This document shows positions 52,540 through 57,126 of a stretch of DNA of 64,000 nt, one piece after another (position 1 is the first letter of the stretch; each line of letters begins with the position of its first letter). The position numbers and the translations under genes were made by a program. The notes below the pieces were generated by a model. That model worked only from the letters and a program-made list of their open reading frames with translations. It did not search any database and had not been told where the DNA came from. This stretch comes from Fidelibacterota bacterium (GTDB lineage: Bacteria > Pseudomonadota > Alphaproteobacteria > Rhodospirillales > Rhodospirillaceae): positions 1 through 64,000 of the forward strand of contig CANJRA010000011.1 in the NCBI GenBank assembly GCA_947476625.1, read 5' to 3'.

Positions 52540-53484
52540 ATGGCTCACATTCACACTAAGGTTCTGATTCTCGGATCGGGCCCGGCCGGCCTCACCGCCG
52601 CTATTTATGCCGCCCGCGCCAATCTCGCACCCGTCATCGTTGCAGGCATGCAGCCCGGTGGTCAGATGACCATTACAACTGACGTCGAAAATTATCCCGG
52701 CTTTCCGGACGTCATCCAGGGCCCTTGGCTCATGGAACAGATGCAGAAGCAAGCCGAGCACGTTGGGGCAAAGGTGATGCATGATCTGATCACCAGCCTT
52801 GATCTATCTAAGCGGCCATTCACCTGCATCGGCGATTCCGGCGACACGTATACCGGCGACACATTGATCGTCACCACTGGCGCATCGGCGCGGTGGCTGG
52901 GGCTGGAGTCCGAAAAGAAATATCAGGGCTTCGGCGTATCGGCGTGCGCAACATGCGACGGCTTCTTTTTCCGCGGCAAAGAAGTCGCGGTCGTTGGCGG
53001 CGGCAACACCGCCGTCGAGGAAGCGCTGTATCTTACGAATCACGCCACGAAGGTTACGCTAGTACACCGCCGCGATTCACTTCGCGCTGAAAAGATTCTG
53101 CAACAGCGCCTATTCGAGCATCCGAAGGTTCAAGTGATTTGGGACTCGGCCATCGATGAAGTGCTTGGCAAAGACGGTCCGCTGGGCGTGACCGGCGCAC
53201 GCGTCAAGAACGTGAATACCGGCACGACGCAAGATTTGAAAATCGACGGTTTATTCATCGCTATCGGCCACACGCCTAATACCGATTTGTTCAAAGGCGT
53301 GCTGGACATGGATGAGAACGGTTATCTCGTCACCCAGGCGGATTCCACGCGCACCAATATTCCGGGCGTGTTCGCAGCGGGTGACGTGCAGGATCACGTG
53401 TACCGGCAGGCAGTGACTGCCGCCGGCACCGGTTGCATGGCGGCTTTAGAAGCGGATCGCTTCCTGGCCGCAGGCGGGCATTAA
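52540..53484 (+). CDS. trxB: Thioredoxin reductase
   Basis: The 314-residue protein has an FAD-binding GSGPAGLTAAIYAARA (residues 13-28), the redox-active CATC (Cys136, Cys139) followed by DG, the NADPH-binding GGGNTAVEEA (153-162) and a C-terminal FAD block ending GVFAAGDVQDHVYRQAVTAAGTGCMAA. Length is typical of the low-molecular-weight bacterial enzyme. It reduces thioredoxin with NADPH. The start lacks a strong ribosome site. A LysR gene follows 64 bases later. Confidence 0.97.
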   Translation: MAHIHTKVLILGSGPAGLTAAIYAARANLAPVIVAGMQPGGQMTITTDVENYPGFPDVIQGPWLMEQMQKQAEHVGAKVMHDLITSLDLSKRPFTCIGDSGDTYTGDTLIVTTGASARWLGLESEKKYQGFGVSACATCDGFFFRGKEVAVVGGGNTAVEEALYLTNHATKVTLVHRRDSLRAEKILQQRLFEHPKVQVIWDSAIDEVLGKDGPLGVTGARVKNVNTGTTQDLKIDGLFIAIGHTPNTDLFKGVLDMDENGYLVTQADSTRTNIPGVFAAGDVQDHVYRQAVTAAGTGCMAALEADRFLAAGGH

Positions 53485-53548: not shown

Positions 53549-54508
53549 ATGCCGATACGCAGCCACGGGCGTCTTGATTGGGATAAATTACGCGTGTTCC
53601 ATGCTGTTGCCGACGCCGGCAGCTTCACGCACGCATCAGAAACCTTGAACCTCAGCCAATCGGCGGTCAGTCGTCAGATCAGCGCGCTGGAAGATGCCTT
53701 GGGTGTGAGCCTGTTCCATCGTCACGCGCGCGGACTCATTCTCACCGAGCAAGGTGATCTGCTGTACAAAACAGTGCACGACGTGTTCGCCAAATTGAAC
53801 AACGTCGAAAACCTGCTGACGGAAACAAAAGAAAACGCCGAAGGCGTATTGCGCGTTACGACGACGGTAGCGTTCGGATCGGTGTGGCTCACCAGCCGCC
53901 TAAAGGAATTTGTCCACACGTATCCCGACATCAAAGTCACGCTGCGTCTCGATGACCAGGAGCTGGATCTTGCTATGCGCGAGGCGGATGTGGCGATTCG
54001 CTTCAACGAGCCGACGCAGCCAGATTTGATTCAACGCCACATCGGCAGCTTGCGGTCGAATCTCTACGCGTCGCCCGAATATCTCAAAGAACGTGGCGTG
54101 CCGACCTCAATCGACGACCTGCGCCATCATGACGTGGTGCTGTTCGGCGAGGGCGTTGCCCCGACCAATACCGTGCACTGGCTGGCGGAAATGCTGGCCT
54201 CGCGTGGCATCAATAACCGCGCGGTACTGCACGTGAACAACATTTACGGCATCTACCGTGCCGTGAAGGCCGGAATCGGCATCGGTCCCTTGCCCGAATA
54301 CTTTGTGCAGGAAGGCCGCGGCATCATGCAGGTCATGCCCGAACTGGAAGGCCCGCCGCTGGAAGCCTACTTCGTATACCCCGAAGAACTGCGCAATTCG
54401 GCGCGAGTCATGGCTTTTCGAGATTTCTTGATACGGGAAGTAGGCCTGTCACGCTCTCAGGTGACCGTGGTAGCCCAAACCGGCGAGAATCAGCGCGCCG
54501 CCGGCTAA
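53549..54508 (+). CDS. LysR-family transcriptional regulator
   Basis: The 319-residue protein has the LysR helix-turn-helix (LRVFHAVADAGSFTHASETLNLSQSAVSRQISALEDALGVSLFHRHARG, about 14-62) and a substrate-binding domain with LDDQELDLAMREADVAIRF, as in the GcvA-like branch. AAAGGACGAG precedes the ATG. It follows trxB and precedes a terminator and the long leader of the PVA-dehydrogenase-like gene, so it is a candidate regulator of that gene; a trxB link is equally possible. Confidence 0.93.
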   Translation: MPIRSHGRLDWDKLRVFHAVADAGSFTHASETLNLSQSAVSRQISALEDALGVSLFHRHARGLILTEQGDLLYKTVHDVFAKLNNVENLLTETKENAEGVLRVTTTVAFGSVWLTSRLKEFVHTYPDIKVTLRLDDQELDLAMREADVAIRFNEPTQPDLIQRHIGSLRSNLYASPEYLKERGVPTSIDDLRHHDVVLFGEGVAPTNTVHWLAEMLASRGINNRAVLHVNNIYGIYRAVKAGIGIGPLPEYFVQEGRGIMQVMPELEGPPLEAYFVYPEELRNSARVMAFRDFLIREVGLSRSQVTVVAQTGENQRAAG

Positions 54509-54542
54509 GCTCATTCGGAGTCAAAACAAGCTTTATAACCCC

Positions 54543-54579
54543 CTACAGCCATAGATTTTTATGGCTGTAGGAGCGTTTT
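54543..54579 (+). terminator. Terminator after the LysR gene
   Basis: A 10-bp stem (CTACAGCCAT at 54543-54552, ATGGCTGTAG at 54561-54570) followed by GAGCGTTTTG. Confidence 0.65.
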
Positions 54580-54788
54580 GCCATACCCTTTTTACGTGTT
54601 ATTCTTTTATTATTATCCGCGTTAGTCATGCGTATACTGCATAGCAATACTCCGGAATCGCATTGGAAATCCAAGGCCTGTGCACGTATTCTGTTTCCAG
54701 ATGTTGCACCGCAGCAATCGCGCGGTCCCACCCTCTCCGGGGTACTCGCGGAAGGTGCCAGGTGTAACAAAACAGCTTGTGGCAAACG

Positions 54789-54924
54789 GTCCTCCCCCGA
54801 GTGTCACATGGTCTAAGGGTAGACAAAGGTAAAATAGGGTCCTCCCCCCGAACATCACCGCCGACTAGGGCGCAAAGCCCGGTCAGTTTACCTGCAGAAA
54901 CTTTAGCCCCTAGGGTCCTCCCCC
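54789..54924 (+). repeat. Three exact copies of GTCCTCCCCC
   Basis: Copies at 54789-54798, 54839-54848 and 54915-54924 (start-to-start distances 50 and 76). Each is the exact reverse complement of GGGGGAGGAC at 55067-55076, the ribosome site of the downstream gene. A looser relative (GTCCCACCCTCTCC) is at 54725-54738. Confidence 0.9.
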
Positions 54925-54941
54925 CTAGGGGCTAAATTTTT
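54902..54941 (+). terminator. Strong intrinsic terminator with UCCUCCC loop
   Basis: A perfect 14-bp stem (TTTAGCCCCTAGGG at 54902-54915, CCCTAGGGGCTAAA at 54923-54936) with a 7-base loop TCCTCCC and a TTTTT tail. It lies 142 bases before the next start codon, so it either ends a separate small RNA or attenuates the downstream gene. Confidence 0.88.
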
Positions 54942-55066
54942 ATGGGAAGCCGCCAACCTGCACAGAGACCCGTTCCCGGACGCGCGCGAGCGCGGCCGAG
55001 GCCATTGGGGTCACCACATCTCCGTTTGCAGGTGACTGCGCATAGGAAATATAACGAGGGGTACTT

Positions 55067-55076
55067 GGGGGAGGAC
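55067..55076 (+). promoter_or_regulatory. Extended Shine-Dalgarno GGGGGAGGAC
   Basis: Ribosome site 7 bases before the ATG at 55084. It is perfectly complementary over ten bases to three upstream repeats, so it could be masked in cis or the repeats could act in trans. This site also decides the start codon. Confidence 0.8.
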
Positions 55077-55083
55077 ACTAGCG

Positions 55084-57126
55084 ATGAAATTCACGTCTCG
55101 TTTGCTGTGCATTATGGCGTTTTCCGCCTGTGCTGCATCGGCCTTTGCTCAGAATGCCGGCCCATCCACATGGACCTTTGCCGGAAACGATGTCCGCAAC
55201 ACACGAAGTGCTAACGGCGAGACGACGATCACCCCGGCCAACGTCTCACAACTCCAGCCTCACTGGTCGACCGTTGTCAAAGGCGGGGCGCGGCTGTCAA
55301 CGCCCACCTCCGACGGCGAATCGCTGTTCATCGGCTCCAATGCCGGCGTTCTTTACCGGATCGATCGCAAGACCGGGCAAGTGCTCTGGCAGGCCGAACT
55401 TCCGGCGGCACTCGGAATTCCGGGAGCGTCTTCAAAGGCGAGCGTTGCGGTGGGCACAGATGCCGTCGTCATCGGCTTGCAGAACACGCCTGTTGTGGCG
55501 GCGTTTGACCGCAAGACTGGCGGCCTCCTTTGGAAAACAACTGTCGACACGCATTCCGGCGCCATCGTCACGCAATCGGCGGTGATTGTCGGAGACAAAG
55601 TATTCATCGGCGTTTCGGGGCTAAGGGAAGAGATAGCTGCCGGCAAACCGGATTATAAATGCTGCAGCTTCCGCGGCAGTGAACTGGCCCTCGATGTTCA
55701 TAGCGGCAAGATCCTCTGGAAGACCTATACAATTCCGGAGGGCTATGCCGGCGGTTCGATCTGGTCCAGCACGCCCGCGTATGATCCCAAGCGTAATCTG
55801 TTGTTCGTCACGACCGGCAATACGTTTTCGTTGCCGCCGGAAGTCGTGAAATGCGCGGATAAGAACAAAGACAATCCCGCGGCACTGGCAGCCTGCACAC
55901 CGGAAGGCGTTTGGTTTGACTCGATCTTGGCGCTGAACGCCGACACCGGCGCGATCAAGTGGGGACGCCGCTTCGAGGCCTATGACGTTTACACGCAGTC
56001 TTGCTTGCTCACGAAAGAAGAAGGCGGCAACCCCGAGAATTGCCAAGGCGGCGGCTATAAAGGTAAAGGCGATTACGATTTTGGCCACGCCTTCAGCGGC
56101 GATTACGACTTCGGCAATGGCGCGATGCTGTGGGAAATCGACGGCCCGAAGGGACACCAGGACGTCGTCGGCGCCGGACAGAAATCGGGCGACGTCTGGG
56201 CGCTCGACCGCGACACCGGTAAGACTCTTTGGAAACAAAATGTCGGCCCCGGCGGGCCTGGCGGCGGCATGGAAATGGGCTCCGCGGTCGACGGCAAGCG
56301 CATCTATGTCGGTCAATCGAACTCCAAGCAGCCCGGCCACAGAGCGGAAACTTACAAGCTGCCTTCCGGCGAAGTGATCAAACACGGATCGTACGCGGCA
56401 CTCGATGCGACGACGGGCAAACTCCAGTGGTGGGTTCCCGCTCCTAACGGCGTGCGCTTTCCCGGCACAGATAATCTGTGCACCTCCAAGAGCCCGCTGG
56501 CGGACTGCACGGGCGCTTATGCACGCGGCCCTGTCAGCACGGCAAATGGTGTGGTGTTCGGCTGTTCAACCGAGCCTGAGGGGCGCATGTATGCCTTTGA
56601 CGCAGCGACAGGAGCGGTGCTGTGGACCTATCCCACCGCCGCAAGGTGCGAATCCGGCGCAGCGATCATCGACGGCACTGTCTATTGGGTTGGCGGTCAG
56701 CAGCTTCACGCCTTTGGCCTTGGTCCTAAGGCGGCGAGTATCAACACGGCCAACGCCGGCCCCGCGTCAACGATGCATCGTTCTGTCTGGGACGGGCTTT
56801 ACACCACCGCGCAAGCTGCCGCCGGAAAGCGGATTTACCAGGCAAGCTGCGCGCAAAGCTGTCACCTCAACAATATGGGCGGCAGCGGTCCTTCTCCGGC
56901 ACTGATCGGCGACTTCGTTTCGCGCTGGGAGGGGCAAAGCGTCGGCGCGCTTTATCAGAAAATTGCCGCGACAATGCCGCAGAGCACGCCCGGTTCGCTC
57001 AAGCCAAGCGAGTATCTTGCAGTTACGTCGTATCTATTGTCGGTGAACGGCTTTCCTGCGGGACAGCAGAACATCAAAGCGGACGAGGCCCAACTTAACG
57101 ATATGCAGATAAAGCAGAAGAAATAG
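55084..57126 (+). CDS. Polyvinyl-alcohol-dehydrogenase-like PQQ protein with C-terminal CX3CH haem motif
   Basis: The 680-residue protein has a signal peptide ending at ASAFAQN. It is a PQQ propeller of the polyvinyl alcohol dehydrogenase branch: PDYKCCSFRGSELALDVHSGKILWKTYTIP with the family CC pair, SIWSSTPAYDPKRNLLFVTTGNTFS, and GDYDFGNGAMLW, with W-motif blades throughout. A C-terminal cytochrome-like domain carries CAQSCH (residues 589-594), that is CX3CH instead of CXXCH, and a Met at 631 as possible sixth ligand. It is expected in the periplasm, oxidising secondary alcohols or a polymer and passing electrons to its own haem. It stands alone between core genes (LysR and aspC) and is far from the other PQQ genes. 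Substrate is inferred from family only. Confidence 0.88.
   Translation: MKFTSRLLCIMAFSACAASAFAQNAGPSTWTFAGNDVRNTRSANGETTITPANVSQLQPHWSTVVKGGARLSTPTSDGESLFIGSNAGVLYRIDRKTGQVLWQAELPAALGIPGASSKASVAVGTDAVVIGLQNTPVVAAFDRKTGGLLWKTTVDTHSGAIVTQSAVIVGDKVFIGVSGLREEIAAGKPDYKCCSFRGSELALDVHSGKILWKTYTIPEGYAGGSIWSSTPAYDPKRNLLFVTTGNTFSLPPEVVKCADKNKDNPAALAACTPEGVWFDSILALNADTGAIKWGRRFEAYDVYTQSCLLTKEEGGNPENCQGGGYKGKGDYDFGHAFSGDYDFGNGAMLWEIDGPKGHQDVVGAGQKSGDVWALDRDTGKTLWKQNVGPGGPGGGMEMGSAVDGKRIYVGQSNSKQPGHRAETYKLPSGEVIKHGSYAALDATTGKLQWWVPAPNGVRFPGTDNLCTSKSPLADCTGAYARGPVSTANGVVFGCSTEPEGRMYAFDAATGAVLWTYPTAARCESGAAIIDGTVYWVGGQQLHAFGLGPKAASINTANAGPASTMHRSVWDGLYTTAQAAAGKRIYQASCAQSCHLNNMGGSGPSPALIGDFVSRWEGQSVGALYQKIAATMPQSTPGSLKPSEYLAVTSYLLSVNGFPAGQQNIKADEAQLNDMQIKQKK

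Follow-up and report, generated by a model that had tools for sequence, protein, structure and literature searches.

A predicted small RNA with repeated anti-ribosome-site loops next to an LsrB/VtlR-like regulator gene in an alphaproteobacterium

Organization of the trxB-lysR region and of the ten-base repeat

The stretch of DNA analysed here, referred to as the window, comprises 64,000 nucleotides of a 2.6-Mb alphaproteobacterial genome. The region of interest carries the genes of a thioredoxin reductase, a LysR-type regulator and a putative quinoprotein, and the interval between the latter two genes contains the elements of a predicted small RNA. The following features were assigned:

52540-53484, + strand: trxB, thioredoxin reductase (TIGR01292 above the cut-off)
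53549-54508, + strand: gene of a LysR-type regulator, LsrB/VtlR-like (Pfam HTH_1, LysR_substrate)
54542-54571, + strand: strong hairpin 3' of lysR (13 bp, -21.3 kcal/mol, z -6.5)
54628-54642, + strand: LysR-type box ATGC-N7-GCAT (T-N11-A), ATGCGTATACTGCAT, found 3' of lysR in all 17 genus loci
54663-54668, + strand: inferred -35 element TTGGAA (TTGGAAA in eight of nine aligned loci, ATGGAAA in L005)
54687-54692, + strand: inferred -10 element TATTCT (spacer of 18; the nine loci have TANNNT there, as judged by eye)
54699-54941, + strand: predicted small RNA of about 243 nt, its start inferred from the promoter and the onset of conservation and its end from the terminator
54703-54717, + strand: conserved 5' element GTTGC..GCAGCAA, from the alignment
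54778-54808, + strand: hairpin of repeat copy 1, loop UCCUCCC (mean unpaired probability 1.0; two-sided changes in four of six outer stem pairs)
54811-54824, + strand: small hairpin GTCTAAGGGTAGAC, conserved in the alignment
54828-54859, + strand: hairpin of repeat copy 2, loop UCCUCCC (mean unpaired probability 0.89; two-sided changes in four of six outer stem pairs)
54902-54941, + strand: repeat copy 3 in the terminator, loop UCCUCCC (14 bp, -25.9 kcal/mol, z -5.2; mean unpaired probability 1.0)
55067-55076, + strand: ribosome site GGGGGAGGAC, a possible target and full complement of the repeat
55084-57126, + strand: gene of a PQQ-propeller/cytochrome c protein, the quinoprotein (Pfam PQQ_2, PQQ, Cytochrome_CBB3)

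The strong hairpin that follows lysR may represent the end of the trxB-lysR transcript; it is absent from the list returned by the terminator scan, and its T run is weak.

The ten-base repeat GTCCTCCCCC occurs on the + strand at positions 54789-54798, 54839-54848 and 54915-54924, within a total span of 136 bases, and its single complement GGGGGAGGAC lies 143 bases 3' of the last copy and 7 bases 5' of the ATG at position 55084. The three exact copies and the perfectly complementary ribosome site that had been described in a first-pass annotation of this DNA were thus all located. The claim that this arrangement is far from chance was likewise borne out, since the window contains four exact matches, whereas 100 dinucleotide shuffles averaged 0.08 and never contained four. 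When one mismatch was permitted, six matches were counted against 3.29 expected, and 18 of the 100 shuffles equalled that number; the exceptional feature is therefore the cluster of exact copies.

Structure of the predicted small RNA and its conservation within the genus

The loop itself is formed by UCCUCCC alone, i.e. seven of the ten repeat letters, with the flanking G and C letters providing the closure of the stem. The mean unpaired probabilities of the three loops listed above compare with 0.44 when the flanks are shuffled. The terminator consists of a stem at 54902-54936 followed by a T run, and two of its stem pairs have changed on both sides. The middle hairpin, when folded by itself, is no better than shuffled sequences (z +0.65), and its support comes from the relatives. 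The first-pass annotation had assigned two of the copies to hairpin loops, one of them that of a 14-bp terminator; the terminator copy was recovered as described, and the number had to be raised to three, as every copy forms a hairpin loop both in the fold of the window RNA and in the consensus structure. With respect to the transcript, an RNA of about 300 bases ending near position 54941 had been expected: the terminator agrees with this end, and the inferred start near position 54699 shortens the RNA to about 243 nt, both ends being predictions.

A DNA search with positions 54520-55083 as query against 61 genomes resulted in matches in 12 of them, namely the genome itself, 10 of 18 congeners, whose contig records are MAGs, and one genome from another family, in which the match is limited to 32 bases located 3' of the terminator. 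The congener matches cover at most positions 54616-54946; they stop at the terminator, short of the leader of the next gene. An alignable RNA with three to four exact copies of the loop was present in eight of the 18 congeners, and these were combined with the window RNA to give alignment A1; G010, whose locus reaches a contig end and has no exact copy, and G017, with a single exact copy, were excluded. Two-sided changes were counted in 17 of the 51 pairs of this alignment (40 cells), a level reached by none of 500 shuffles. Versions with slid partners yielded at most five pairs with two-sided changes, a comparison biased in favour of the counted structure, as this structure was derived from A1 itself, minus four long-range pairs. 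These pair-change and slid-partner counts indicate that the stems of the RNA vary and covary and that the loops stay nearly invariant, with the exception of a single altered letter in the terminator loop of L004.

Throughout the nine RNAs, the loops have mean unpaired probabilities of 0.77-1.0, as against 0.40-0.52 with shuffled flanks, although in the best fold of the L004 RNA not every loop forms a clean hairpin. The 5' hairpin also bears the loop in six of the nine rows of A1 and lacks it in L002, L003 and the window. In the 600 bases 3' of lysR, the 17 genus loci contain between zero and four UCCUCCC copies, and 16 of these loci have at least one copy. Additionally, the small hairpin GTCTAAGGGTAGAC at 54811-54824, located between the first two loop hairpins, shows near letter-for-letter identity across the nine aligned RNAs, a degree of conservation that exceeds the expectation for a plain spacer.

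The predicted promoter and the LysR-type regulator

Given the inferred start near position 54699, the LysR-type box would be centred near -64 and span about -71 to -57. In the nine aligned loci it precedes the GTTGC element by 75-76 nt and therefore lies near the position of the proven LsrB site of nfeR1. The latter site, a T-N11-A box with the sequence TGCA-N6-GCAT at -72 to -60, is supported in Sinorhizobium meliloti by point-mutation and gel-shift experiments (PMC10746234), and the window box is one letter off this sequence, TGCG replacing TGCA. The regulator site of abcR1, GCAT-N3-TG-N3-T, is located at -61 to -49 (PMC8844928). This stricter VtlR consensus was present in none of 12 genus boxes and in 10 of the 20 that lie outside the genus. 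Of the 55 loci covered by the first box scan, 30 showed the box together with the 5' element. The inferred promoter was not picked by a sigma-70 consensus scan, the sole listed site of which (54578-54605) compares with 1.1 expected by chance.

The best solved-structure match of the window LysR protein is 9hh1 (E 1.6e-91; runner-up 2.9e-31), which represents LsrB of Agrobacterium tumefaciens (PMC11975290). Matches to the protein at E<=1e-60 were detected in 56 of the 61 genomes, each with a single one, and trxB is located on the same strand 5' of lysR in 54 of 55 loci (L015-L069; L068 starts at a contig end). Judged by sequence matches rather than by phylogeny, the regulator is thus closest to LsrB, present in single copy and adjoined by trxB. 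In A. tumefaciens the gene order is trxB-vtlR-abcR1-abcR2, and the trxB-vtlR order is called well conserved in the class (PMC7486931); the surroundings of AbcR1 are also described as highly syntenic among alphaproteobacteria (PMC8844928). LsrB is described in PMC11975290 as confined to the Rhizobiales, contrary to the LsrB-like reading proposed here.

The window LysR protein contains no cysteine, and V148 and V276 stand in the place of the two redox cysteines of A. tumefaciens LsrB, C144 and C273. A cysteine at the C144 or C273 position was present in none of the 55 loci of the order, compared with 16 and 20, respectively, of 30 loci from relatives of Aureimonas. This cysteine-free regulator therefore cannot employ a thiol switch of the kind that has been proposed for LsrB. 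Six contigs tagged Candidatus Marinimicrobia (L094, L103, L110, L129, L133 and L137) carry lysR genes 76-83% identical and trxB pieces 84-97% identical to those of the window, and these tags look wrong.

Comparison with known small RNAs and proposed mode of action

NfeR1 of S. meliloti (alpha-r14, RF02344), which is activated by LsrB (PMC10746234), resembles the window RNA in that each has three hairpins whose stems differ but whose anti-Shine-Dalgarno loops are identical to one another, and in a LysR-type T-N11-A box near -70, counted in the window from the putative start. The differences concern the Rfam score (21.3 bits, E 0.48, against a gathering score of 58.8), the motif CCUCCUCCC, which does not occur in 54699-54941, the length (123 nt compared with the inferred 243 nt) and the order of the host. 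The AbcR1/AbcR2 RNAs of the Rhizobiales (alpha-r15, RF02345) resemble the window RNA in their place 3' of trxB and an LsrB/VtlR gene (PMC7486931), in the kind of regulator and in their anti-Shine-Dalgarno motifs; however, the RF02345 model did not match the window region at E<=10, and the AbcR motifs CUCCUCCC and UUCCCCUC are both absent from the window RNA. The SorX (RF02784) and suhB/mmgR (RF00519) models produced sub-threshold matches to the order-wide relatives described below, but neither recognized the window region at E<=10. The best reading of these comparisons is that the window RNA would work like NfeR1 and is placed like AbcR, yet it fails the Rfam models of both.

Several redundant UCCC motifs, one of them inside the terminator loop, are also characteristic of the LhrC RNAs of Listeria, which belong to an unrelated phylum, have several gene copies and are subject to another regulator.

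The product of this region is likely, in our view, a small RNA that acts in trans. It would be transcribed from its own promoter upon activation by the LysR-type protein and would block ribosome sites with its three UCCUCCC loops. The LsrB/VtlR-type regulator would bind the ATGC-N7-GCAT box and turn the promoter on, and the transcript is predicted, with the backing of the covariation data, to form a row of hairpins, three of which, including the terminator, would expose UCCUCCC, the complement of GGGAGGA ribosome sites. By analogy with NfeR1 and AbcR, LsrB-controlled RNAs whose anti-Shine-Dalgarno loops silence mRNAs via pairing (PMC10746234, PMC8844928), each loop may block the translation of a target mRNA through pairing with a purine-rich ribosome site, so that the copies may be redundant or dose-raising. 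The proposal of the first-pass annotation that the RNA acts in trans on G-rich ribosome sites is well supported at the sequence level by the free-standing unit, the covarying stems, the near-invariant loops and the conserved LysR-type box.

Putative targets and alternative explanations

In the genome itself, the pattern GGGAGGA-N3-10-ATG occurs 27 times compared with seven times for the reversed pattern, and GGGAGGAC-N2-10-ATG eight times compared with once. The ammonium transporter gene amt was rejected as a conserved target, as an exact GGGAGGA site is present in only three of 16 genus loci. A gene for a Tat-signal-like oxidoreductase (L160, positions 1511-2656, same genome as the window) carries the full 10-letter complement 2 bases 5' of its ATG. 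A conserved mRNA target was not found within the genus, and none is claimed. This result, along with the presence of multiple identical loops as a usual form of a titrating RNA and their variable number (zero to four) within the genus, would fit a sponge or decoy that titrates a protein or another RNA instead of silencing mRNAs. The loop is, however, an exact complement of ribosome sites, the LsrB-controlled RNAs with such loops act on mRNAs as outlined above, and no finding speaks specifically for the sponge that had been offered in the first-pass annotation; we regard this explanation as improbable.

The quinoprotein gene was of particular relevance for the second alternative, according to which the hairpins form its 5' leader, with the pairing between repeat and ribosome site and the terminator controlling the gene. 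The perfect 10-letter complement is located on the same strand at the short distance given above, only six such 10-mers, this one included, were detected outside the repeats in the whole genome, two of them right before the ATG of a long open reading frame, and the 11-mer duplex has an energy of -22.9 kcal/mol. The free part of each hairpin is the 7-nt loop only, for which the duplex energy amounts to -12.7 kcal/mol; both values compare with -10.9 kcal/mol for an assumed 16S tail. Moreover, the quinoprotein gene adjoins the RNA in none of the ten congener loci that were read further (L070-L079), nine of which have a convergent aminotransferase gene at that place instead. Among the 19 genus genomes, matches to the quinoprotein at E<=1e-80 comprise, apart from the protein itself, just two hits in one congener, which are 48-49% identical and located elsewhere. 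As the gene is missing from the congener loci and the aminotransferase gene is found in its place, it was probably inserted between the RNA and the aminotransferase gene in the window genome only. Since the RNA is kept without this gene beside it, and the congener DNA match ends at the terminator, the cis-leader role put forward in the first-pass annotation is not supported as the function for which the RNA has been conserved. We accordingly give this alternative very little credence. The match to the quinoprotein ribosome site is unusual, but judging from the relatives it does not appear to be the reason why the repeats exist, and the gene may possibly be one trans target in the window genome.

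CcsR/cuckoo RNAs of Rhodobacter likewise combine several hairpins with anti-Shine-Dalgarno loop letters, and the alphaproteobacterial host would also be compatible with an array of this type, as considered in the first-pass annotation. CcsR-like RNAs accompany a DUF1127 gene (PMC10253847), and the cuckoo arrangement is a chain of separate RNAs behind a protein gene. Neither feature was seen here: no DUF1127 match was obtained for the neighbours trxB, lysR and the quinoprotein gene or for two open reading frames that overlap the intergenic region (at least 80 aa), and the window RNA is predicted to form a single transcript unit under a LysR-type box, which makes membership in this group highly unlikely. 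Finally, repeats without function, kept by chance or local copying, would account for the variable copy number and for the one congener without an exact copy, but hardly for loops that stay constant while the stems change by compensating pairs, and are just as unlikely.

Related RNAs in the order and the class

In other families of the order, a different RNA is located 3' of lysR, consisting of a 5' GTTGC hairpin, a variable middle part, the core ACGTCTCCCAGACGTGAAGCCTCCCTGTT and a terminator. This order-wide RNA is shorter and has a single CGUCUCCCAGACG hairpin plus an unpaired GCCUCCCUGUU. The core was found 3' of lysR in 23 of 40 loci (L030-L069); the remaining 17 lack it at this place, where some have other motifs, and in some genomes the RNA sits elsewhere, e.g. 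in G034 and G060. Tandem RNA copies 3' of lysR, with the box or the 5' element repeated, were observed in L040, L064, L068 and L031.

A covariance model, R1, was generated from an alignment (A2) of 24 sequences from 21 loci, with the diverged L035 and L060, which is truncated at a contig end, left out; its terminator shows seven pairs with two-sided changes. At E<=0.01, R1 matched 189 of the 199 genomes of the order, as many as nine times in a single genome, and at E<=0.001 it matched 145 of 289 genomes of the class, these E-values being rough owing to the short calibration. The genome itself gave no R1 match, and the window copy, which lacks the CCUCCCU stretch, none at E<=10. The 3' ends of the genus RNAs yielded five weak R1 matches (E 1.5e-4 to 0.0099), and L035 from a sister genus was matched at E 7.6e-11.

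Among the 30 loci fetched per search (L161-L190 for the order, L221-L250 for the class), a lysR match was present in 29 and 24, respectively, counting the partial or weak matches of L183, L233 and L236. The ATGC-N7-GCAT box was located 100-340 bases 5' of 29 of 35 cores of the order and 24 of 28 cores of the class, compared with none in either set when downstream stretches of equal length were searched. The GCAT-N3-TG-N3-T consensus was present in 18 (order) and three (class) of these upstream stretches.

With respect to Rfam, the order-wide RNA remained below the thresholds in all 16 loci scanned, the best scores being 38.0 bits against 46.6 for SorX and 33.2 against 41 bits for RF00519. In the relatives of Aureimonas, 17 of whose 30 loci were scanned, ar15 (AbcR) was detected at the same place above the gathering score in five loci and below it in four more. 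A search with RF02345 gave no match in 142 class genomes and the five genomes of named loci, and none in 14 control genomes either. No published description of the window RNA or of the order-wide RNA was found in the openly licensed PMC literature, and a paper on Azospirillum small RNAs (PMC7685610) yielded no information on the locus.

From these data we infer that the array RNA of the genus descends from the order-wide RNA. In this history, the loop cassette GGUCCUCCCCC would have come to reside on two to four different stems in most members of the genus, and the window genome appears to have lost the CCUCCCU stretch that the aligned congeners retain. A scan of genome contigs for two cassettes 30-60 apart returned 64 stretches, 11 of which adjoin lysR and trxB; the other 53, which have no lysR or trxB match, were taken as chance occurrences or other repeats. 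Position and box suggest, furthermore, a possible common descent of the order-wide RNA and AbcR.

Biological significance

The broader proposal, to which we lean with some reservation, is that an undescribed, LsrB/VtlR-controlled lineage of small RNAs exists in about half of the sampled alphaproteobacterial genomes and that AbcR is its Rhizobiales branch. The genus RNA would then have evolved by the spread of a loop cassette over unlike stems, and the regulator would operate, at least in this order, without the thiol switch of the Rhizobiales.

AbcR and NfeR1 are known from the Rhizobiales, in which they adjust the uptake of nutrients and influence the association with hosts, and comparable small RNAs occupy the corresponding position, next to the gene of a LysR-type regulator, in many other alphaproteobacteria. 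Within this genus, covarying stems have gained and lost identical loops, which provides a clean case of pairing-site turnover in what would be a multi-target RNA, and the cysteine-free LsrB-type regulator turns the nature of the sensed signal into a testable question. If the pair of regulator and RNA is class-wide, the circuit would be far older than the host-associated lifestyles of the Rhizobiales, and it would be accessible in harmless, free-living relatives.
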